Positions 4,181-29,692 of a DNA stretch of 31,655 bases are shown piece after piece. Below the pieces are notes generated by a model. That model worked only from the letters and a program-made list of their open reading frames with translations. It did not search any database and was not told the origin of the DNA. The stretch is from IMG/VR virus record IMGVR_UViG_3300006751_000074, positions 1 to 31,655 of that record, one strand, 5' to 3'. The position numbers and the translations under genes were made by a program. How positions within the stretch are numbered: the first letter of the stretch is position 1; each line of letters begins with the position of its first letter. The DNA comes from a virus.

Positions 4181-4528
4181 GTGTCGGGACTAAGAAGCCG
4201 CCGGAAAGGGGCTGGTTACGAACGTCTCATCGCCCGCCGGCTGGCAGAAAAGACACCGGCCGGTAAGGTTTCGCGCGGCTATCAGTACCGAGGCGGCGAC
4301 GAATGCCCCGACGTAGACGTCGCCGGCGTGCTCTGGATCGAATGCAAGCGCCACAAAATGCCGAACATACGCGCCGCAATGCGTCAAGCGATAGCCGACG
4401 CGCCGAAAGGGCGGATCCCGGTAGCCGTAACACGCGCCGACCGCTGCGATGTCGGCGATATTGTTAGCCTAACGCTCGCCGATTTCGAGGAATTATGGGC
4501 CGTGTACTGGCAGAGCGTCAACCGGTAA
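4181..4528 (+). CDS. PD-(D/E)xK nuclease, Holliday-junction-resolvase-like
   Basis: 115 aa from GTG 4181, two bases after the preceding stop. The fold pattern of Hjc-like resolvases is visible: a basic N-terminus (RSRRKG), E14 in AGYERLIARRL, D44/D46 in PDVDV, and E54-x-K56 in WIECKRH. The rest alternates helices and strands (IPVAVTRADR, VSLTLADFEELW). Such enzymes cut branched DNA in phage replication, recombination or packaging. It closes the plus operon led by the primase, and its stop overlaps the convergent minus gene by 11 bp. The nuclease superfamily is firm; resolvase activity is inferred from size, motif order and context. Confidence 0.82.
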   Translation: MSGLRSRRKGAGYERLIARRLAEKTPAGKVSRGYQYRGGDECPDVDVAGVLWIECKRHKMPNIRAAMRQAIADAPKGRIPVAVTRADRCDVGDIVSLTLADFEELWAVYWQSVNR

Positions 4529-4760
4529 GCGCCCGCCGCGCCAGCTCCAGCACCTGCACGCCAGGCTGTCGGCCCGAGCGAGCCGTCGCCCGCATTAAAA
4601 ATGCTACCTTGTCGTCTTGCTGCGCTTGCTGCAACCACCGCGAAACCGCCCGAGGTTGAACCATACACAGCCGCGCAAACTGCGCCTTAGTGCGCCGCGC
4701 ACCCTCGCCGGCTGCCAACCAGTCGACCAGAATATCGCGCATTTCCTGTGCGCGCGTCAT
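4518..4760 (-). CDS. Small helix-turn-helix protein (80 aa)
   Basis: The start is set at ATG 4760, where ATGA overlaps the stop of the upstream MazG-like gene; the longer upstream frame only shadows that gene. The region TKAQFARLCMVQPRAVSRWL fits a helix-turn-helix with recognition helix around PRAVSRWLQQA, followed by a short basic segment that could be a wing. A role as a phage transcription regulator is an inference. It is the last gene of the 7135-4518 operon and converges on the nuclease gene. Confidence 0.65.
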   Translation of the reverse strand: MTRAQEMRDILVDWLAAGEGARRTKAQFARLCMVQPRAVSRWLQQAQQDDKVAFLMRATARSGRQPGVQVLELARRALTG

Positions 4761-4978
4761 TTGCCGCCCCTCGCACGCCTGGCCAATGCCTTGACCCGCT
4801 CGTCTAGCATGAAAAGATACGCAACGGCGTCTTGTATTTCCTCGTGTATATCGACCTCGAGTTTGTCGATCGACGCCTCGAAACCCTCGTCGCCGTAAAG
4901 TTTGGCGCCCTCGGTTAGTCTCGCCTCGACCGCAGCGGCAAACCGTCGCCACGCGCCCCGCTGTCTAAATTCAACCAT
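4757..4978 (-). CDS. Small MazG-like helical protein (73 aa)
   Basis: ATG 4978 overlaps the stop of the preceding gene by 8 bp. The longer in-frame upstream part is a shadow of that gene. Residues around EGAKLYGDEGFE and then LEVDIHEEIQDAVAYLFML resemble the acidic helices of MazG/all-alpha NTP pyrophosphohydrolase proteins found in many phages (EE-x-x-D pattern). These hydrolyse nucleoside triphosphates in the family at large. This copy is very short, so activity is uncertain. It could equally be only a structural relative. Confidence 0.6.
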   Translation of the reverse strand: MVEFRQRGAWRRFAAAVEARLTEGAKLYGDEGFEASIDKLEVDIHEEIQDAVAYLFMLDERVKALARRARGGK

Positions 4979-5174
4979 TGCCGCCGCCCTCGTATGCAGC
5001 GAGGCAAGCGTCGACACGGCTACGCCTTTCGCAGCAACGCCGATCGCGATAGTGGCCGAGACTCTGCTCAGCATCCCGCAGCGCGCGAACCGCCTTATAA
5101 AGCGCGTCGCCTTTGCTCGCCATATCCAGCCAGCCAGCCAACGAAACCGGCCGCTTGTGTTCGTTGTCTACCAT
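4971..5174 (-). CDS. Hypothetical protein (67 aa)
   Basis: ATG 5174 shares one base with the TAA of the upstream gene (TAATG), typical of translational coupling. The N-terminus is polar and the middle helical (WLDMASKGDALYKAVRALRDAEQSL), followed by an arginine-rich stretch with two adjacent cysteines and a glycine tail. I recognise no family. Continuous overlaps with both neighbours support it as a real gene. Confidence 0.6.
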   Translation of the reverse strand: MVDNEHKRPVSLAGWLDMASKGDALYKAVRALRDAEQSLGHYRDRRCCERRSRVDACLAAYEGGGNG

Positions 5175-5494
5175 TACGCACCCCTCGATCGCGGCATATT
5201 AGCCGCCGCCATTGCGACGCGAGCCTCTAAGATCGCGCGCTGTAAATGCACAGCCTCGGCCCGATTGCAGCCGACGCAGCGCGGCAAACCCTCGCCGCCC
5301 AATTCCCATAATAGACCGCCCTCGACGAGTGCCTCGGCAGACTCTAAGGCGGCGACTAGTTTCTCGAGCGCCTCGCCGGCCTTTTCTAGTCGTTGTTTTT
5401 CCCGGTAAATATTGCACGCCGCGCACCGTGTCGACGTGCCAGGCGCACCGCCGCACGCGTTACACTGAAACAAACCGCCCGTTCTTTTACCCAT
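5174..5494 (-). CDS. Small zinc-ribbon-like protein (106 aa)
   Basis: The start is fixed by GGAGG eight bases before ATG 5494. Cysteines C11, C14, C24 and C27 (CNAC...CAAC) fit one zinc site; C73 and C76 (CVGC) could form part of another. A helical middle (REKQRLEKAGEALEKLVAALESAEAL) separates them. No enzyme motif is visible, so it may bind nucleic acid or protein. Its RBS, start and first residues (MGKRTGGLF) lie inside the right-hand copy of a 52-bp direct repeat shared with the preceding gene. Confidence 0.7.
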   Translation of the reverse strand: MGKRTGGLFQCNACGGAPGTSTRCAACNIYREKQRLEKAGEALEKLVAALESAEALVEGGLLWELGGEGLPRCVGCNRAEAVHLQRAILEARVAMAAANMPRSRGA

Positions 5495-5523
5495 TCTTAT
5501 TACCTCCAACGCTGAGAGCCGCC
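5472..5523. repeat. 52-bp direct repeat, copy A (gene junction)
   Basis: Matches 5875-5926 at 45 of 52 positions without gaps; the last 22 bases (5502-5523) are identical. On the minus strand it covers the 3' end of the upstream gene, the GGAGG site, the ATG and the first nine codons of the downstream gene. Differences cluster between RBS and start. Confidence 0.9.
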
Positions 5524-5897
5524 AACCGGCGCGCATAAAAAACCACGTGCGACCCTTGCACACCGTGAAAAGAAAAAAGTTTCCGCAGTGCGCGGATCAC
5601 ACGCACAGCCCCGCTATAGCTAGTGGTCGAGCATATCTCGTTCACCTGGATAGAATCATCACCGGGCAAAGCGGCCAACGCGTAAACGCGGTATTGCGGC
5701 CGCTGTCCGTACATACGAGCGCGCCGCAAAAGGATCCGTGGCTCGATCTGATCTTGATACCTGCGCCAGTCGGCAATATCGTAAACCCGCAGCCGGCAAA
5801 GATTCGCAACCGCCTTCGGCTCGAATCGTAAATGTTTCTCCGTATTCTGCGAGACAGAAACGACCCGCCCGAATAAACCGCCCGCTCTTTCACCCAT
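5487..5897 (-). CDS. Hypothetical protein between two direct repeats (136 aa)
   Basis: ATG 5897 is preceded by GGAGG in repeat copy B, and its TAA overlaps the next ATG by 8 bp (ATGGGTAA). The N-terminus MGERAGGLF and C-terminus AALSVGG are encoded within the two repeat copies. The start therefore resembles the next gene's start, and the end resembles the ligase's end. The core has an arginine-rich helix (EPRILLRRARMYGQ), short strands and a basic segment (AVRVIRALRKLFSF). I recognise no family. The repeats suggest that it was gained as a unit. Confidence 0.65.
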   Translation of the reverse strand: MGERAGGLFGRVVSVSQNTEKHLRFEPKAVANLCRLRVYDIADWRRYQDQIEPRILLRRARMYGQRPQYRVYALAALPGDDSIQVNEICSTTSYSGAVRVIRALRKLFSFHGVQGSHVVFYARRLAALSVGGNKNG

Positions 5898-5926
5898 TGC
5901 CGTAACCTCCAACGCTGAGAGCCGCC
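5875..5926. repeat. 52-bp direct repeat, copy B (gene junction)
   Basis: Partner of 5472-5523, offset 403 bp. It spans the end of the ligase gene (AALSVGG...stop), a GGAGG site and the start of the 136-aa gene, in the same arrangement as copy A. Confidence 0.9.
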
Positions 5927-6792
5927 GACAGCGTGCAAGCCTGCGCGCCTTTGTCTGCGTGCCAGTCTACAAAACTAGGGTGTCGCAGCGCGCCGCTAGG
6001 GTATACCGCAAACCCGGCCGCCCGGAAAACCCGACCGACGTATTGCTCGGCGTGCGCTGCCATTTCGCCGCGCTGCCAGTCGTAAAGAGATCCCGCGTTT
6101 ACTGCGCCCGTGAGTTTGCCGCCCTTATACAGCCCACCGATTACAGACTTAACCGCGCCCGACGGTCTGCGGTTGAAACCCATGCAGACGTAATCCACCT
6201 CGAACCGTCGTTTTATTCGGATGCAATCGTCGCCGAAAGCGCCCTCGCTGCGCTTTGCGACTAACCCTTCCCAGCCCTGCCCGAGCACATACTCGCGCCA
6301 TATGCAATCAAGCCGCACGCCCATTATTAGCCAGCTACTCGCAAACGACCAGTTCGGCACGCACGCAACCAGCCCGCCCGAAAGTTTGCCGAGCCCCTCG
6401 AAATCCTCGTCGCCACCGACCAGCCTTTCGAGCCATTGCCGGCGCTCGCAGTGCGGCCGCTCGCCGTCCATTTGCACGTCGAAAGCGTAAAACATGCCCG
6501 CCCGATTACCACCTCGCGACCAGTGGGTGCCGTGCATAAACTCGCCGTAAAGCACAGCGCGACCGCCGCCAGCGGACAGCCTGATCGTTCCCTTGTGCGC
6601 GCCCGAGCGTGAGTAAATATCACAACGCCGACCATCGACAACCATACGCGCCGCGCAACCGTCCGCCTTAAGCTCGATCGTATCGAACCCGCGCTCGATA
6701 AGCTCGCACGCTACCGCCGATCGCTGCTCGTCGGTTTCCATCCGCGCGCCGATGTCGGTAAAATTTATTTTATTCGCTGTGCCGATCTGCAT
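5890..6792 (-). CDS. ATP-dependent DNA ligase
   Basis: 300 aa from ATG 6792, with GAGGGGG five bases upstream. Nucleotidyltransferase motifs are in order: I with catalytic lysine K42 (LKADGCA), LYGEFM (81-86), FYAFDV (101-106), IV EGLVAKR (175-181) and V RIKRR (192-196). An OB-fold part follows, with GGLYKGGKLTGAVNAG and RHPSFVDW (270-277), typical of small phage ligases. It seals nicks, probably in replication and repair with the Sak4, SSB and resolvase proteins encoded nearby. Its last residues AALSVGG fall in a direct repeat, and its leader is a near-copy of the leader of the upstream gene. A hairpin-T7 terminator ends 31 bp before its ATG, so expression may depend on read-through. Confidence 0.9.
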   Translation of the reverse strand: MQIGTANKINFTDIGARMETDEQRSAVACELIERGFDTIELKADGCAARMVVDGRRCDIYSRSGAHKGTIRLSAGGGRAVLYGEFMHGTHWSRGGNRAGMFYAFDVQMDGERPHCERRQWLERLVGGDEDFEGLGKLSGGLVACVPNWSFASSWLIMGVRLDCIWREYVLGQGWEGLVAKRSEGAFGDDCIRIKRRFEVDYVCMGFNRRPSGAVKSVIGGLYKGGKLTGAVNAGSLYDWQRGEMAAHAEQYVGRVFRAAGFAVYPSGALRHPSFVDWHADKGAQACTLSAALSVGGYGNG

Positions 6793-6813
6793 CCGTCCCC
6801 CTCGTGCTGTCCA
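6790..6813. repeat. 24-bp leader repeat, copy 1 (ligase start)
   Basis: Matches 7133-7156 at 23 of 24 positions. On the minus strand it reads from about 20 bases upstream through GAGGGGGACG to the ATG. It gives the ligase and the upstream zinc-protein gene the same ribosome-binding region. Confidence 0.88.
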
Positions 6814-6823
6814 CCTACACCAC

Positions 6824-6851
6824 AAAAAAACGCACGACCCGTTGTCGTGCG
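6824..6851 (-). terminator. Rho-independent terminator
   Basis: On the minus strand an 8-bp perfect stem (CGCACGAC, paired with 6831-6838 and 6844-6851) closes a 5-base loop and is followed by seven T (6830-6824). There is no T-run on the plus side, so it is directional. It lies just after the 90-aa zinc protein gene and just before the ligase leader. Confidence 0.85.
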
Positions 6852-6862
6852 CTCGATCTGGG

Positions 6863-7135
6863 TTAGTACAGCAAACAAAAAAGACACGTCGCCAGCTCAT
6901 CGGCGCACGTGCACCCCTCCGCGCGGATCTCGGCCTCTTGCCTGCGGCGCTTTTCCCGCCGCACCCGCGCCGCCGCCTCGCGCTTTTCTGCGAATGCGTC
7001 GCCGCACGCCGGGCACCACTCAGGATCGCAATGATGCCCGCAAGGATCTGGCGCCTGCGTGCCGCACCCGCGCGCGTCGTTGTACGCATTAACCCCGTGG
7101 CTCATTGCAACCATGTTTACTTGTTCCTTTGTCAT
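6863..7135 (-). CDS. Small cysteine-rich zinc-binding-like protein (90 aa)
   Basis: The start is set at ATG 7135 by GAGGGGG five bases upstream in leader repeat copy 2. Two cysteine clusters are present: C24, C32, C36, C41, C44 (ending CPAC) and C75, C77, C84, C87 (CTC...CLFC). They are joined by a highly basic helix (KREAAARVRREKRRRQEAE). This suggests a zinc-stabilised nucleic-acid-binding protein, but no named family is recognised. It is the first gene of its operon, divergent from the phosphoesterase gene, and is followed at once by the terminator. Confidence 0.65.
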   Translation of the reverse strand: MTKEQVNMVAMSHGVNAYNDARGCGTQAPDPCGHHCDPEWCPACGDAFAEKREAAARVRREKRRRQEAEIRAEGCTCADELATCLFCLLY

Positions 7136-7156
7136 TCGTCCCCCTCGTGCTGTCCA
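7133..7156. repeat. 24-bp leader repeat, copy 2 (zinc protein start)
   Basis: Partner of 6790-6813, offset 343 bp, with one mismatch next to the start codon. The unit between the copies holds exactly one gene and one terminator. Confidence 0.88.
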
Positions 7157-7268
7157 TCCCTGTAATTGTCCGACGTCCATACTATAGGCCAGCGGCCCAT
7201 TATGCAAGCAATAAACGGCGCGCTCGTTGTTTCTGGGTCTAACTATGCGAACACGCTAACCTTTACCC
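7136..7268. promoter_or_regulatory. Divergent intergenic region
   Basis: This 133-bp gap separates the minus operon (start 7135) from the plus operon (start 7269), so promoters for both should lie here. On the minus strand TATAGT (7186-7181) matches the -10 consensus at 5 of 6 positions, 46 bp before the ATG, but no good -35 is seen. No convincing plus-strand promoter is visible. Confidence 0.35.
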
Positions 7269-8612
7269 GTGAGCACGCGCGCCCAGTGGTACCCCTCCGA
7301 GGTCGAGAAATACAGCCACGCGTTGCGGCGTTTGTCCGAGGGTGCCACGCGAGGCGAAATCGCTGGCGAGTTAGGCGTACACCGAAACACCGTTCGCGCT
7401 GTCATAAAGCGCGCCGAGGCGTGGTCGCAAAGCCGGGAACGTCTCGAGGTAACACAGACGCCGTTAGGAAAAGAAGTAACCAGCACCGGGCGGATCCGAA
7501 CGCTGGCCGATCTTATGCTCGCCTGCGGTATCGATCGCCGCGCCTGGCGTTGCCGCTCGTATTCTTGCAATAAATGGGACGCAATGACGGCAGCGGTCGA
7601 CGGCGCCGGCAACGAGCTTCGCGAATTGTATCAGGTAAAAGCGCAATTCGAGCGGGTCGAGCCGTGGCAAAACAAAACGATCGACGTTATAAACCCGATC
7701 AAGCCTGAGCCGGTACAGCCAATCGAGCGATCGATCCGTCGCGCTCTGATTATCCCAGACTCACAAAACGGATTGATAAGACATAAAAACCGATTCGAGC
7801 CGACCCACGATCGGCGCGCGTGGGATCTATGCGTGCAAGTCTGCCAGCAAATGCAACCCGACGCCGTGGTAATGCTCGGCGATATGCTCGACTTTCCGAC
7901 GCTTTCCAGGTTCAGCACCACGCCGGCACAATCCGATCTGATACAACCCACGCTCGCCGAGTTGTACTGGTGGATCTCACAACTCCGACTTGTAACCGAC
8001 GCGCCGATCATCTACATAGCCGGGAACCACGAGGCAAGACTCGAGCGCGCCTTATTAGATTCGACAGCGCGCGACGTGGCGCTCGTGCACCCGGTCGACA
8101 GCACAGACACCCGGCCGTTGCTGTCGGTGCCTCGGCTAATGGCGCTCGACTCGCTGTCGGTGCAATACGTGGCGCCATATGGATCCGAGTTTTGGCTATG
8201 GGATAAGATACGGATCCACCACGGAAACATAGCGCGCACCGGCGGCGGCGCGACGGTTGCCTCGGCCCTGAAATCCGCAACCACCGACGAGATTTTCGGA
8301 CACGTGCACCGGCTCGCAATGGCTGGCAAACGGATCACAGACTCGCAAGGCGCGCGCAATGTTTGGGTAATGACGCCTGGTTGTATCTGCCGAGTCGACG
8401 CGCCCGTCGTGCCCGGCACAAAACCGCGTACCGACTGGCAGCAAGGGATCGGGGTTGTAACCATGACGCCACCGCACGCAGCCGGGCCGGCTCTGGTTTC
8501 AATGGAAGCGATACCGATCCAAAATGCGCGGATGGTATACGGCGGCGCGCTCTTGCACGGGCGCGATCGAACCGATGAGATTAGAACCGCAACCGGATGG
8601 AGCTGGTTCTGA
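7269..8612 (+). CDS. HTH-metallophosphoesterase fusion (calcineurin-like)
   Basis: 447 aa from GTG 7269; no good Shine-Dalgarno sequence is visible, so the start is not certain. The N-terminus holds a helix-turn-helix (GATRGEIAGELGVHRNTVRAVIKRA, residues 25-49). After a linker with a cysteine pair comes a calcineurin-like phosphoesterase: PDSQ (163-166), GDMLD (204-208), GNHE (252-255), HHG (317-319) and GHVH (344-347), the usual di-metal ligands with Q where many members have H. The family includes nucleases and phosphodiesterases; the DNA-binding head suggests that it acts on DNA. It leads a two-gene plus operon with the zinc protein that overlaps its end. Confidence 0.82.
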   Translation: MSTRAQWYPSEVEKYSHALRRLSEGATRGEIAGELGVHRNTVRAVIKRAEAWSQSRERLEVTQTPLGKEVTSTGRIRTLADLMLACGIDRRAWRCRSYSCNKWDAMTAAVDGAGNELRELYQVKAQFERVEPWQNKTIDVINPIKPEPVQPIERSIRRALIIPDSQNGLIRHKNRFEPTHDRRAWDLCVQVCQQMQPDAVVMLGDMLDFPTLSRFSTTPAQSDLIQPTLAELYWWISQLRLVTDAPIIYIAGNHEARLERALLDSTARDVALVHPVDSTDTRPLLSVPRLMALDSLSVQYVAPYGSEFWLWDKIRIHHGNIARTGGGATVASALKSATTDEIFGHVHRLAMAGKRITDSQGARNVWVMTPGCICRVDAPVVPGTKPRTDWQQGIGVVTMTPPHAAGPALVSMEAIPIQNARMVYGGALLHGRDRTDEIRTATGWSWF

Positions 8613-8871
8613 TTTGTTTTATTGTTCCCGTAAAAAAGCGCGCCTGTCGTTCGAGCAATGCCTCGATCTATTCGTCGACACTCACGCGCTAAACGATAGC
8701 GCCTCGCCCTGCTATGGCTGTCCGCTCGGCGCGCGCCACCGGTTCCGCCTGGCGTTCGACCGCGAACCGAGCCGCGCCGAGTTAGAAAAATACGTCGCAT
8801 ACTGCGGCGCCGGCCCGTCAATAGGGCGCCCGGTACTAGGCAAACGCCGCCGCCTACTTGACGATCCATAG
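8575..8871 (+). CDS. Small zinc-binding-like protein (98 aa)
   Basis: ATG 8575 lies 38 bases inside the end of the phosphoesterase gene, in another frame. This overlap and the protein-like frame after 8612 support it. Cysteines occur in FYCSRK, FEQC and SPCYGCPLG, a likely four-cysteine site, and the C-terminus is basic (GKRRRLL). No enzymatic motif is seen. Its stop overlaps the stop of the convergent minus gene by 18 bp. Confidence 0.68.
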   Translation: MRLEPQPDGAGSDLFYCSRKKARLSFEQCLDLFVDTHALNDSASPCYGCPLGARHRFRLAFDREPSRAELEKYVAYCGAGPSIGRPVLGKRRRLLDDP

Positions 8872-9138
8872 CGCCGGCAGATCGCCAGATACCGGCGCCA
8901 GATCCTCGAACACTCGCGCGCTCTGGTGCCACTGTACAGCCTCGATCTTACCCTGGTATGGCTCATCGAGCCGCACCGTAAAAAATGGCAGCACAGAGAC
9001 AACGGTCCCGAGTGTGTCGGGCGATATAAGAACGCGCAGGATCGTTTTATCTGTGGCGTGGGAAACAACGCACGCGCGCACAAACCGCACCCGCACACCG
9101 CGCGCCAGGCAGCGGCGCAACCCGTCGCGGTAACTCAC
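8854..9138 (-). CDS. Hypothetical protein (94 aa)
   Basis: I set the start at GTG 9138, which overlaps the TGA of the 24-codon frame upstream (GTGA). A longer frame from TTG 9192 exists but would cover that peptide. The protein is strand-rich (VRVRFVRACVVSHA, TVVSVLPFFTVRL) and ends in PALWIVK. I recognise no family. It is the last gene of the small minus operon 9698-8854. Confidence 0.55.
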   Translation of the reverse strand: MSYRDGLRRCLARGVRVRFVRACVVSHATDKTILRVLISPDTLGTVVSVLPFFTVRLDEPYQGKIEAVQWHQSARVFEDLAPVSGDLPALWIVK

Positions 9139-9209
9139 ACCAGCCCCAAAAAGATCGGAAGCTGCGCCGCGAGAAAGGACAGCAAGATCCAAACGAACGC
9201 GCGCCGCAT
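9135..9209 (-). CDS. Tiny hydrophobic membrane peptide (24 aa)
   Basis: ATG 9209 lies four bases after the lipoprotein stop, with AGGGA very close upstream. It opens a 24-codon frame: a basic MRRA start, then an almost wholly hydrophobic stretch (FVWILLSFLAAQLPIFLGLV). It ends in a GTGA overlap with the next gene. It fits a single-span membrane peptide. The RBS spacing is short, so translation is unproven. Confidence 0.45.
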   Translation of the reverse strand: MRRAFVWILLSFLAAQLPIFLGLV

Positions 9210-9213
9210 TTCC

Positions 9214-9435
9214 CTACTCATCGGCGGCCGCGCTCCAACCATCATCAAGGCAACGCATAACCACCGGCTGGACGTTGCCGTAGCTTTGCGCGTCGGCGCC
9301 GCCTGGCGCCAATTCCACCACGTTACAGCCGCACAAAACGCCCATGGTTTCCTGGTCGCCGTCGCACAAAGTAAAATCGAAACCGCACGCCACGCACAAA
9401 AGCGCGGCCACTAGGATCGCCCGTGTTCTTTTCAT
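9214..9435 (-). CDS. Small lipoprotein (73 aa)
   Basis: ATG 9435 is preceded by GGAGG ten bases upstream. The N-terminus is a lipoprotein signal: MKRTR, a hydrophobic core AILVAALLCVA, and a lipobox ending at C17. The mature part is small, acidic and has further cysteines (C24, C35, C37, C62), suggesting a disulfide-held domain at the outer membrane or periplasm. Phages use such proteins as spanins or superinfection-exclusion lipoproteins. It lies far from the amidase, so exclusion or another early role is as plausible as lysis. Confidence 0.68.
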   Translation of the reverse strand: MKRTRAILVAALLCVACGFDFTLCDGDQETMGVLCGCNVVELAPGGADAQSYGNVQPVVMRCLDDGWSAAADE

Positions 9436-9521
9436 TATGTTTTAGCCTCCGAAAGAAAAACGAAGGCGCGCGCCTATTACTATCGTAGTGCGCGACGGGT
9501 TGCGCGGCGAGAAACTATTCG

Positions 9522-9698
9522 CTAACCTCGGCGCGAGCTGTCGTCGGGCGCGTGGGGTTTTTGGGTTTCTCGCGCCTGCGCGTCTGGCGCCAGCTCATCG
9601 GACGCCACCCGGTGGAGGCTATCATTCTCGGCGTACTGGTTCGGGCACGTCTGGAAGTTTCCGATCTCGCCGCACGTCAAACAATATGAGGTGGCCAC
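9522..9698 (-). CDS. Small cysteine-motif protein (58 aa)
   Basis: GTG 9698 has AAGGGG six bases upstream, a strong site. The frame runs 58 codons to TAG at 9522. It begins MATSYCLTCGEIGNFQTCPNQ, with C6, C9 and C18 as possible zinc ligands, and ends in a polar, disordered tail. It heads the minus operon and is divergent from the HTH gene at 9744 with only 45 bp between them. Confidence 0.62.
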   Translation of the reverse strand: MATSYCLTCGEIGNFQTCPNQYAENDSLHRVASDELAPDAQARETQKPHAPDDSSRRG

Positions 9699-9708
9699 GT
9701 TTTACCCC

Positions 9709-9737
9709 TTGCAAGTATCTGCGTAATTTCCTAAGTT
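9709..9737 (+). promoter_or_regulatory. Candidate promoter giving a leaderless HTH transcript
   Basis: TTGCAA (9709-9714), a 17-base spacer and TAAGTT (9732-9737) would start transcription near 9744, the GTG of the HTH gene. Both boxes are weak. The lack of any Shine-Dalgarno sequence before that GTG makes a leaderless message conceivable. Confidence 0.25.
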
Positions 9738-9743
9738 TACCGA

Positions 9744-9935
9744 GTGCAAAATATCGAACTAGCTCCGTTTGATAGACTGGCAGACCGCGAGACGAAGGCG
9801 CGAGCCATGATCGTCTGTGGTGTGTCAGAGTCGACCGTCAGGAACTGGGTAGCAAGGCCGGGAACGATCCGGTCTTGCTACCTGCGTCGGCTCGCTCGAC
9901 TGCTACATTGTAACCTCGAGGATCTTATCCCGTGA
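9744..9935 (+). CDS. Small helix-turn-helix (Cro-like) protein (63 aa)
   Basis: GTG 9744, with no RBS visible. The product is essentially one helix-turn-helix domain: TKARAMIVCGVSESTVRNWVARPG with recognition helix around ESTVRNWV, then a C-terminal helix (YLRRLARLLHCNLEDLI) like the dimer helices of Cro/CI-type proteins. It probably regulates the divergent region at 9699-9743. Its stop overlaps the next start (GTGA). A later ATG at 9808 would remove the first helix and is less likely. Confidence 0.68.
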   Translation: MQNIELAPFDRLADRETKARAMIVCGVSESTVRNWVARPGTIRSCYLRRLARLLHCNLEDLIP

Positions 9936-10804
9936 AATTACCGACAAAACCATCGACCCGCTACTCGGAATTACAGCACGCGCGCGTGCTCATTTATAGC
10001 AGATCGAACGGGTTCGGTAAAACGAAACTATGCTCGCAGATACCGAACGCGCTTTTTCTCTGTACCGAGGACGGCGCTAACTTTTTAGACGTGGCCAGCG
10101 TTCGGCTTAATAGCTGGCAAGATTTCCGCGCCGTGGTTGCTGAGCTGGAAAAGCCCGGGCACGGTTTCGAGACGGTGGTTATAGATACGATCGATCGGTT
10201 GGTGCGACTAAAAGAGGATGATTGGTGCAAACAAAACGCGCCCAACACCCCGAAATCAAACTATCACGAGGGCTGCGACATTATCGAAAGGCAATTCGAT
10301 CGAGGGCTCGACCACCTCGGCCGGCTGCCCAACCTCGGGATCTGGTTGATCGGTAACTCTGTGGACGCCTCGAAAGGCGACGAGCCGACCCACTACGATC
10401 TGAAAATGCCGCGCAACCATGCCAAATGCCGAAACACCGTTCGAGACTTTGCCGACATTATCCTTTTCGGCGAGGTACGGCCGAACGGATCGCGCGTGCT
10501 GTATGCTAATCAGCGCGGCCCATTCCATGCAAAGGATAGAACCGATCGACTACCAGACGCGATCGAGCTGCCAGATAAAAATAAAAACTTCGAGGCAATA
10601 AGGAACGCATTTTATGAGCACACCAAACACGATCACAGCGATCGGAAAGCTACCGCGCCCACCAAAGGTAAGCGAGGGAACGCGAGACAACGGCAAAACG
10701 TGGCACCTGGCAAGGTTCACGGTAGAGACAGCGGAGCCGAGGACGAGCAAAGCCGGGGACCAGTACAACGCGCGGGAGTTTTGGACGTGCAAAGCGTGGG
10801 GTAA
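9932..10804 (+). CDS. Sak4-like RecA-fold single-strand annealing/recombination ATPase
   Basis: 290 aa from GTG 9932. The core (about 1-228) fits the phage AAA_24/Sak4 family: HARVLIYS, a P-loop ending NGFGKT (26-31), LFLCTEDGA (41-49), Walker B TVVIDTID (81-88), IWLIGNS (137-143) and DFADIILFGEVRP (172-184). These proteins pair or anneal DNA together with SSB. The P-loop reads SRSNGFGKT, with one more residue than usual and no first glycine. After residue 227 the frame runs 63 codons further through the ssb gene in another frame, and that tail looks non-native. One extra base before 10615 would bring the TGA of ATGA (10614-10617) into frame and give a normal-length protein, so a frameshift or sequence error is possible. 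Confidence 0.78.
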   Translation: MKLPTKPSTRYSELQHARVLIYSRSNGFGKTKLCSQIPNALFLCTEDGANFLDVASVRLNSWQDFRAVVAELEKPGHGFETVVIDTIDRLVRLKEDDWCKQNAPNTPKSNYHEGCDIIERQFDRGLDHLGRLPNLGIWLIGNSVDASKGDEPTHYDLKMPRNHAKCRNTVRDFADIILFGEVRPNGSRVLYANQRGPFHAKDRTDRLPDAIELPDKNKNFEAIRNAFYEHTKHDHSDRKATAPTKGKRGNARQRQNVAPGKVHGRDSGAEDEQSRGPVQRAGVLDVQSVG

Positions 10805-11027
10805 TCAGGCGCGAGCCATGGGCGCCTTAGATGCCGGCGCGCTGGTGTATGTTTCCGGCCAACTAAAATCGGAGAAATGGACACCTAAGGACGGACCCGA
10901 AAAGCGCGAGGTTTTTATCGACGTTTGGTCGGTGCTACCGCTCGAGGCTGGCGCTACATTAGCAGACGCCGCAACCGCAGCCGGCGGCATGGGCGGCCGT
11001 TTCGACGATGAGGATCTACCGTTCTAA
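10614..11027 (+). CDS. ssb: Single-stranded DNA-binding protein
   Basis: 137 aa. OB-fold pattern: NTITAIGKLPRPP, TWHLARFTVET, REFWTCKAWGNQA, ALVYVSGQLKSEKW and REVFIDVWSV, then a short linker and an acidic tip DDEDLPF. That is the classic SSB C-terminal peptide that docks partner proteins. It coats single-stranded DNA during replication and recombination. It follows the Sak4-like gene, a pairing seen in other phages, and its start lies 190 bp inside that frame. Its TAA shares a base with the next ATG. Confidence 0.9.
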   Translation: MSTPNTITAIGKLPRPPKVSEGTRDNGKTWHLARFTVETAEPRTSKAGDQYNAREFWTCKAWGNQARAMGALDAGALVYVSGQLKSEKWTPKDGPEKREVFIDVWSVLPLEAGATLADAATAAGGMGGRFDDEDLPF

Positions 11028-11236
11028 TGCCGTACGTCATGCGCCCCTGTCCAACCTGCGGATCGATCGTGCTGCATAACGGCCGCAAGTTTGAGCCCAG
11101 ACACGCGAAAGCCTGCGCCGAGGCGTCCGCACCGGTGCGCGCCTATTTCAAAGCGCACCAACGTTTCCCAAAACGAGACGCCGACGGCAACTATAACAAG
11201 ACACTGCAAGCGGAGATCGACGCGCTCGGCGGCTAG
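11027..11236 (+). CDS. Small C2HC zinc-finger protein (69 aa)
   Basis: ATG 11027 overlaps the ssb stop (TAATG). C8 and C11 (CPTC) with H26 and C30 (HAKAC) form a C2HC finger of normal spacing; a helical tail follows (AYFKAHQRFPKRD). It probably binds nucleic acid or partners SSB; its function is unknown. It ends the plus operon and overlaps the convergent minus gene by 4 bp. Confidence 0.7.
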   Translation: MPYVMRPCPTCGSIVLHNGRKFEPRHAKACAEASAPVRAYFKAHQRFPKRDADGNYNKTLQAEIDALGG

Positions 11237-11469
11237 TCTTCGGGCGGCCCAAAGTCGATCGAGGCTGTGGCGCTCGCGTCGTTTTCGACTAGCACCTTAA
11301 CGTCGGACGGTTCGATCTGCCGTAGCGCCCACTCGAGCCCGCGATACAGACACGCCTCGGCGGCCGTTTTGAACCTCGGATCCACGTGGTCGGGCAGCGC
11401 GCTGATTCCAATACGGATCGCATTGATTAGGATCGTCGCTAGTCTCGGATCTAATTCGGGCATGGGCAC
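11233..11469 (-). CDS. Hypothetical protein at the end of the late operon (78 aa)
   Basis: The start is either GTG 11469 or ATG 11463 (GTGCCCATG), both overlapping the end of the holin-like gene. The protein is mostly helical (RLATILINAIRIGISALP, AAEACLYRGLEWALRQI) with a short strand and an acidic end. There is no clear membrane span or known family. Its position after the lysis genes is all that suggests a late role. Confidence 0.6.
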   Translation of the reverse strand: MPMPELDPRLATILINAIRIGISALPDHVDPRFKTAAEACLYRGLEWALRQIEPSDVKVLVENDASATASIDFGPPED

Positions 11470-11846
11470 GCGCCTGTCGCTTTAATGTCGAGTTTCATTT
11501 CGCCGCGCTGCGTATAGCGGACGGTATCATCGACAGTACAGATCACCGAATGAGGCGGCCCGGCGACGAGCTTACAGTCGGCGGTTTTTTTCGCTTTGAC
11601 TGTGAGCGTGCCGCAACCAGCAATAAGCCCGATGATGATAAGCGAGCCGAGGGTCGTTTTTGCGGCCGTTGCTTTGATGCTTACGCCGGTCGTCGTCGCC
11701 AGCCTGAGCGCGACAGTAAGACAACCGATCAACACATACGCCCAATCGGGCAGCGCGACGGTTTCCAGATATGCCAGCACCCCGATCGCGATCGTGCCAA
11801 CGCCTAGCCATACGGTTCGGCTTTTGTACCATGCTTTTTTGTTCAT
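11451..11846 (-). CDS. Holin-like membrane protein with an internal lipobox (131 aa)
   Basis: ATG 11846 overlaps the upstream stop (ATGA). Two hydrophobic helices (about 12-30 and 34-50) after a basic N-terminus fit a small holin. A third hydrophobic stretch (66-77) is preceded by lysines and ends in LIAGC (C78), a textbook lipobox. It is followed by a soluble segment with C91, C103, C127 and C129. The C-terminal half therefore looks like a small outer-membrane lipoprotein, as in o-spanins, fused behind a holin-like part. No internal ATG, GTG or TTG is placed to start it separately. It lies after the amidase and the i-spanin-like gene, so a lysis role is likely. Confidence 0.65.
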   Translation of the reverse strand: MNKKAWYKSRTVWLGVGTIAIGVLAYLETVALPDWAYVLIGCLTVALRLATTTGVSIKATAAKTTLGSLIIIGLIAGCGTLTVKAKKTADCKLVAGPPHSVICTVDDTVRYTQRGEMKLDIKATGACPCPN

Positions 11847-28093: not shown

Positions 28094-29692
28094 TCAATCC
28101 CCCAGCATTTGCGCGGCCAGATCGCTGGTCACACCTAAGAAAGCCTGTAGCATTGCGGCGCCGCTTTTCGGCGTTAGCTCGCCGCGTTTTACGGCGGTAA
28201 CGATATTAACCGCGCTCTGGATCTGGATGCCGGTATATTCGACAGACGGGATCCCGCCCTCGTCGGCTGGTAGCTGGCCGGCGGTTAGGTTGTCGCGCAC
28301 TCGCGCCTCGGCTTGCGTGCGGTTCATTTGGTGGCGGGATGCCACCACGTCGACCGGGCTCGAGATCCCGCGCTTAAACTCTAGCTCGTTTTGCTGTGCT
28401 TCCTGGTATTGGTCGCGCGGGTAGGTCACATTTGCGACGACCATTTCGAGGCGCGTTTCGTCTCGGTATCTCACGCGCCCCTGTTGCCAGTGGTAATTAG
28501 CCACGCGTTTGTGTATGTCCCACGTTTCCCGTAGTGCGGTCATATACATTGGGATCCGTTCCTGCCGTCGCAGCGTTAGCGCGTGCGCCTCCTGCTGCTT
28601 TGCCAGGCTCGAGCGGGCGGCGCCGAGAGCCGACCAAATGTCGGCGGGCAGCCCCTCGGTTACTGCGGCAAGCCGTAGTTGATTCTCGATGGTTTCGGTC
28701 AATGCCTTTATTTGCCCGGCCGATCCCGGGTTTTTGAAATCGAAAGAAAAATCGCCGGGGCTCTCGTGGCTCGTGATAACGGCGCCCGGGCCGATTACTA
28801 AGGCTTCCTCGGAATGATAACCCGAGGCGACGGCAATACTAAAACACTGAAAACGGCACACGTGATCGAGGTCCATCACGGCCGAGGATACCGCCAGCTC
28901 ATGAGCCAGCCAGCCGGCGCGAGGCTCGTCCCAGAATTCGCCCGGGCATGGATAGCTTGCGCGCCAGATAGCGGCCGGGATCGTCTCGTACCGATTGAGC
29001 CCGTCCATAAAAAGCGGGTTGTCTAATAGCCGCCCGTCCTCGGTATGATAAAACATTTCGCCCGGTGTCCAGGTTACAAACTGGCTCGAGTTGTCTTTTT
29101 GTGGCAGCTCGAAAGTAATCCAATCGGCCGAGGCGATCGAGGTGGGATCCGAGGCGTTCGTCTCGACGTGCGCCACCTGGTAAGGCGGATATAAACACCA
29201 CTTGATCCGACCGTTGATCCACGTTGGCTGTACAACCACCGATCGAAACAATACGCACCAGCGATCGAGCTGATACAAAAGCCCGGGCAGATCGCGCGAA
29301 TCCTCGCGCCATTGCATAACCTCGGGATGATCCTCGGGCAACCGCTCGCCTCTAACCGTTAGGTAAGTCTCGGGCGCGTGGTGGAATGTGCTCGCCAATG
29401 TGTTGACCATCATCGGCACCAGCCCGAAAAGCCGGATCCCCGAACCAATGCCGGCCGCTTGTTTTGTCCATTCGCGCGCAACCTGCGGGTGTGTTACCCG
29501 GGCGCGTGCTTTGACTAGCTCCATCGCGCCGGTGCCTTGATCTAAAAAGGCGTGTAGATTGGTATGGATCTCGTTTGTGTTCTTGCGACTGGCGAGCCGC
29601 GCCTTTCGCAATGAGTCGAGCACCACCTCGCGCGCTTTGCTTTTCCATAATCCGCCCGGTTGCTCTACTGGTTTCAGATCAAAGTATGCCAC
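28094..29692 (-). CDS. Portal protein
   Basis: 532 aa from GTG 29692, with TAGGAG nine bases upstream. The size, the position after the large terminase and the sequence character fit a portal ring subunit: helices near the N-terminus (VVLDSLRKARLASRK), strand-rich wing (IKWCLYPPYQVAHVETN, ADWITFELPQ), a stem-like helix region (AGQIKALTETIENQLRLAAVTEGLPADIWSAL) and a long helical crown (HKRVANYHWQQG, YQEAQQNELEFKRGI). The portal is the DNA gate and docking site for terminase and tail. Confidence 0.85.
   Translation of the reverse strand: MAYFDLKPVEQPGGLWKSKAREVVLDSLRKARLASRKNTNEIHTNLHAFLDQGTGAMELVKARARVTHPQVAREWTKQAAGIGSGIRLFGLVPMMVNTLASTFHHAPETYLTVRGERLPEDHPEVMQWREDSRDLPGLLYQLDRWCVLFRSVVVQPTWINGRIKWCLYPPYQVAHVETNASDPTSIASADWITFELPQKDNSSQFVTWTPGEMFYHTEDGRLLDNPLFMDGLNRYETIPAAIWRASYPCPGEFWDEPRAGWLAHELAVSSAVMDLDHVCRFQCFSIAVASGYHSEEALVIGPGAVITSHESPGDFSFDFKNPGSAGQIKALTETIENQLRLAAVTEGLPADIWSALGAARSSLAKQQEAHALTLRRQERIPMYMTALRETWDIHKRVANYHWQQGRVRYRDETRLEMVVANVTYPRDQYQEAQQNELEFKRGISSPVDVVASRHQMNRTQAEARVRDNLTAGQLPADEGGIPSVEYTGIQIQSAVNIVTAVKRGELTPKSGAAMLQAFLGVTSDLAAQMLGD

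Follow-up and report, generated by a model that had tools for sequence, protein, structure and literature searches.

The viral contig studied here, a record of 31,655 bp that was analyzed over its whole length (the window), carries a 136-aa gene bounded on both sides by copies of one gene joint. This gene was probably gained by recombination at a start-site joint, which is the best reading of the arrangement, with a foreign origin being the most likely one. Such a gain would make the locus a clear case of a phage gene-exchange unit that can be read from sequence alone, namely a joint with stop codon, Shine-Dalgarno sequence, and start codon that flanks one gene. The arrangement is already known in kind from mycobacteriophages; the unusual addition is that a portion of the joint recurs at the start of a gene in an unrelated phage.

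Anatomy of the repeated joint

The gene order on the minus strand is a 90-aa gene, an ATP-dependent DNA ligase, the 136-aa gene, a 106-aa Cys-rich gene, and then small genes. The ligase (300 aa, 5890..6792) matches phrog_114 (E 4.2e-19) at residues 39-282, and because this match covers nothing beyond residue 282 of the 300, the repeat-encoded tail is an add-on outside the conserved ligase. The 136-aa gene (5487..5897) lies between the two copies of the joint. Family and profile searches gave no match for its product, and the predicted structure had a mean pLDDT of 42, which is too low for use. The 106-aa protein (5174..5494) has Cys pairs (CNACGG...CAACN) and was considered zinc-type by eye, with no firm family in Pfam or PHROG searches. 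The 90-aa gene (6863..7135), a Cys-rich reading frame upstream of the ligase, belongs to no Pfam family and matches PHROG only weakly.

The repeated joint, termed repeat A, has its upstream copy at 5872..5929 and its downstream copy at 5469..5526, both on the minus strand. The preliminary description had reported two copies, 403 bp apart, that match at 45/52 positions; we confirmed this for the frame starting at 5472 and extended the match to 49/58. This similarity is far outside chance, since the next best pair of 52-mers in the 31.7-kb record (all shifts of at least 20 compared) scores 34/52. Outside the repeat, identity falls immediately to 1–4 of 10 on both flanks. As also described earlier, each copy contains the end and stop codon of the preceding gene, the Shine-Dalgarno sequence GGAGG, and, from the next gene, the start codon and nine codons. 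The upstream copy thus holds the end of the ligase, GGAGG at 5906-5910, and the ATG of the 136-aa gene (5895-5897) with its first codons, and the downstream one comprises the last part of the 136-aa gene, GGAGG at 5503-5507, and the ATG of the zinc-type gene (5492-5494) with its first codons. Each copy has its stop codon overlapping with the start codon that follows (ATGGGTGA, ATGGGTAA). The translations agree with the reported sharing of the ending AALSVGG, found in the ligase (AALSVGGYGNG before the stop) and the 136-aa protein (AALSVGGNKNG before the stop), and of the beginning MG-x-R-x-GGLF, found in the 136-aa protein (MGERAGGLF) and the zinc-type protein (MGKRTGGLF).

The longest exact run between the copies is 22 nt, up to and including GGAGGT. 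Because these 22 nt are identical and the 8-nt spacer between GGAGG and ATG holds five of the nine differences (hypergeometric p = 0.0013), the start-site parts appear to have been kept, while the spacer drifted or was replaced. At up to 3 mismatches, just two copies of repeat A occur in the window. The RNA of the repeat has no stable shared fold (z-scores +1.4, +0.4, and +0.7) and no Rfam match, and neither a promoter nor a stem-loop lies inside the repeated joint. A scan for sigma-70 promoters found no promoter-like site on the minus strand within 4500-7400. The hairpins close to where the 136-aa gene ends are only weak; a strong hairpin follows the 90-aa gene.

A second start-site repeat, repeat B, was missed in the preliminary description. 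It consists of 19 identical bases (GGACAGCACGAGGGGGACG), or of 24 nt including flanks with one mismatch, and its exact copies at 6794-6812 and 7137-7155 stand directly before the ATG of the ligase (6792) and that of the 90-aa gene (7135). With leader and start codon included, the downstream copy spans 6790..6813 and the upstream copy spans 7133..7156 (both minus strand), and the 90-aa gene lies between them. A terminator-like hairpin of 11 pairs with a T-rich tail (6828..6854, minus strand) is situated between the 90-aa gene and the ligase. At up to 3 mismatches, 0.01 matches to repeat B are expected by chance, and scans of other sequences did not find it elsewhere. Across 42 hand-listed gene starts in the window, repeats A and B are the only strong pairs, with scores of 27.0 and 21.5 and the next at 11.5.

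Start-site repeats in other contigs

A 17-mer of the repeat A leader was scanned across IMG/VR, which yielded 6 loci. In one of these, L005 (within L109, from a 162.8-kb viral contig), the match to the downstream copy of repeat A is exact over 25 nt (5503..5527, minus strand). This stretch, GGTTGGCGGCTCTCAGCGTTGGAGG, is found at L005 1899-1923; it ends at the Shine-Dalgarno GGAGG and is followed by AACCA and the ATG of a 102-aa open frame, a gene that is unrelated to those of the window. The preceding gene in L005 stops 25 nt ahead of the element, at 1873, and the AALSVGG frame is not translated within that gene. Because L005 shares the 25 nt downstream of the preceding gene’s stop, where they are untranslated, the element is conserved as nucleotides, not as a shared protein end. 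Among the findings that would speak against its reading, the preliminary description had named repeats explained only by conserved protein ends, and this alternative was rejected, as L005 carries the leader past the preceding stop with an unrelated gene next to it.

The L005 contig has one copy of the element at up to 3 mismatches. It contains no match to the terminase or primase of the window phage, which is weak evidence, coming from one record and without a positive control. The remaining 17-mer matches stop at 20 nt or less, and comprise 5 viral loci (three with the same sequence) and 17 loci in bacterial or archaeal genomes. Given two copies as queries and viral hits of four different kinds, we estimate the chance of 8 extra matching bases to be on the order of 1e-4. 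A variant pattern that included the start codon matched L005 and L007 and had no match in bacterial genomes; the L007 match sits within a reading frame (by eye) and was counted as chance. With short pieces as blastn queries, all matches were weak (E 0.5 to 9) and lay in phages and plasmids. We also considered that the 25-nt leader might be a portable element for translation start, able to pass by itself from one phage to an unrelated one and to settle in front of unrelated genes, with start sites being exchangeable and acting as recombination handles for single-gene addition; this is a tentative idea that we regard as unlikely. Were such movement of the leader to occur, phages could exchange start sites as parts, which would help to account for the addition of small phage genes of unknown origin with the expression of their neighbors left unbroken. 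Separately, L109 has a start-site repeat of its own (48/55, at 6730-6784 and 7528-7582, 798 bp apart), in which a hairpin and then GTAGGAGG stand before two different genes.

Repeats at gene starts are a fairly common feature of phage contigs. Our census covered 90 sequences (1.33 Mb), consisting of the window, the L005 contig stretch (L109), 5 other pattern hits, 3 named phages, and 80 primase relatives. In its looser form, at least one start-proximal repeat pair scoring at least 17 was present in 19/90 sequences (38 rows). The 90 take in the window itself, L109, which was picked for the element, and contigs that nearly duplicate each other, such as L065/L069 and L088/L089. When the start register was applied strictly, the census gave 4 pairs, in 3 of the 90. 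Three runs with shuffled sequences gave 0 pairs, but these contained about 7,700–8,200 start pairs versus 22,721 in the real set. The window pair is the strongest in the census except for the top row of L050, which is an internal tandem repeat. The nearest anatomy to the window is in L081, which was named by neither census and came from a wider repeat list: the first codons of one gene are present twice (16821 and 17082, 261 bp apart), with a Cys-rich open frame of 68 aa between the copies and the first copy cut short after 21 codons.

Successive small genes in L065, L069, and L084 (about 8700-14000) are preceded by a leader motif (TAGAGTTCCACTCGTAAG) in arrays, with several of the motifs about 435–450 bp apart. 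These arrays resemble the Start Associated Sequences of cluster K mycobacteriophages, which PMC3203893 describes as a 13-bp motif that occurs in many copies per genome before start codons. Repeats A and B, and the L005 element too, are similar to these in standing directly before the start codons of unrelated genes. However, they differ from that description (PMC3203893) in forming two longer families with two copies each, with one copy in the L005 contig.

Origin of the 136-aa gene

We propose that repeat A is gene-joint sequence, running from the end of the preceding gene through the Shine-Dalgarno sequence and start codon to the first codons, and that the 136-aa accessory gene either entered by recombination at such a joint or brought its own copy. 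Two flanking copies would result, with stop, Shine-Dalgarno sequence, and start retained for every gene in the row. If the copies recombined with each other, the 136-aa gene would be lost and a single joint between the ligase and the zinc-type gene restored. The geometry of this deletion is as claimed in the preliminary description: exactly one gene would be removed, and the ligase and zinc-type genes would be kept in order with a working start site. The act of insertion, its direction, and its reversibility are inferred; the observations themselves are the anatomy, the repeat beyond chance, the deviating G+C, and the leader that is conserved as nucleotides. The earlier term “cassette design” goes too far, considering how common start-site repeats are (19/90) and that a regulatory reading stands beside it; the geometry was retained from that interpretation, and the composition of the middle gene fits a gain. 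The unique middle of the 136-aa gene has 55.8% G+C, below all local 342-nt windows tested (57.9–64.0%), although the same value is only at the 23rd percentile of the whole window, which counts against gene gain. Gene gain is further supported by a repeat that is above chance, has abrupt ends, and bounds exactly one gene; by the ligase tail lying outside the profile match; by the adjoining repeat B, which brackets a gene and a terminator; and by the like anatomy of L081 and the published case of Island3 and Brujita.

Boundary sequences are known from lambdoid phages. The idea of conserved boundary sequences is presented, with citations, in PMC3029335, which also contains the closest published case among the systems compared here. 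Gene 68 of Island3 is described there as being without homologs and as sharing about 50–60 bp at its 3' end with the 3' end of gene 67, Brujita has one recombinant copy, and recombination between the copies explains the presence or absence of gene 68 (PMC3029335). As in that case, the window has a small homolog-less gene whose 3' sequence and C-terminus are common with the preceding gene, a direct repeat at both gene edges, edges that fall on gene ends, and intact neighbors. Unlike Island3 and Brujita, where a single-copy relative is known, none was found in our searches, and repeat A extends over the Shine-Dalgarno sequence into the next gene, of which it includes the start codon and nine codons. 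In LRRHood and Cali, according to the same account, 29-bp direct repeats at gene ends bound extra DNA of 1.35 kb with four genes, and relatives have one copy (PMC3029335); the window is alike in its short direct repeats at gene ends, but has one gene between them. The PeSLs of T4-type phages are described in PMC4503421 as mobile regulatory cassettes with a promoter and a stem-loop, whose repeated joints were proposed to mediate gene shuffling. Repeat A is likewise a repeated joint sequence, but one without a promoter and without a stem-loop. The 136-aa gene also differs from a moron (a gene with its own promoter and terminator), as the sigma-70 scan gave no promoter-like site before it and hairpins near its end are only weak.

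The main alternative is that the repeat is a shared translation-start leader, akin to Start Associated Sequences, which is kept by selection or gene conversion for translation and has no role in the gain or loss of the middle gene. We consider this a tenable but less likely possibility. The copies differ at 9/58 positions, mostly in the spacer, and this pattern, with the upstream 22 nt including GGAGG identical and the Shine-Dalgarno–ATG spacer having taken 5/9 of the changes, fits long selection on a start site as well as it fits a scar of recombination. The recurring 25-nt leader could be regulatory, as it was found again before an unrelated gene in another phage; repeat B is likewise a leader repeat, and leader repeats are also present in the comparator contigs L065, L069, L084, and L087. 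The searches made also revealed no empty or differently filled slot, which weighs against gene gain. However, a leader of this kind is at odds with the presence of only two copies in the window, versus many per genome for Start Associated Sequences, with similarity that runs through nine codons past the ATG, beyond what a leader needs, and with the lack of a stable shared RNA fold.

A short tandem duplication of the joint and a gene, with one duplicate diverged beyond recognition, would account for the direct orientation, the spacing of one gene length, and the nine first codons in common. It is quite improbable, considering that flanking similarity drops at once to 1–4 of 10 on both sides and that the composition of the 136-aa gene is unlike that of its neighbors. 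Chance similarity or an assembly error is very improbable: the record is an assembled viral contig known from assembly alone, but the match of 45/52 compares with 34/52 for the next best pair, and the copies are non-identical and have at most 22 exact bases in common, which would be too short for the usual assembly joins.

Relatives of the phage

IMG/VR was scanned by 8-mers with the 136-aa, ligase, zinc-type, and portal-position (28094-29692) proteins, with no close relative found. Likewise, blastn of 4500-7300 and tblastn of the ligase and the 136-aa protein against 50,697 phage records found none. Across IMG/VR and these phage records, we thus found no relative with the ligase, 136-aa, or zinc-type gene, nor one with a single copy and no middle gene. 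Among the matches listed from phage records, those to the terminase (22–27% identity) and the primase (22–31%) are distant, and an alignment-guided scan of IMG/VR gave best-segment identities of 23–41% for the primase in the best 80 of 438 relatives. The phage is an orphan, with terminase and primase matches being distant throughout, among the matches listed. At E 0.01, no match to the seven genes of this stretch or to a 447-aa phosphoesterase was present in any of the 89 loci compared. This 447-aa protein (7269-8612, plus strand) has a helix-turn-helix region at its N terminus, joined with a metallophosphoesterase region.
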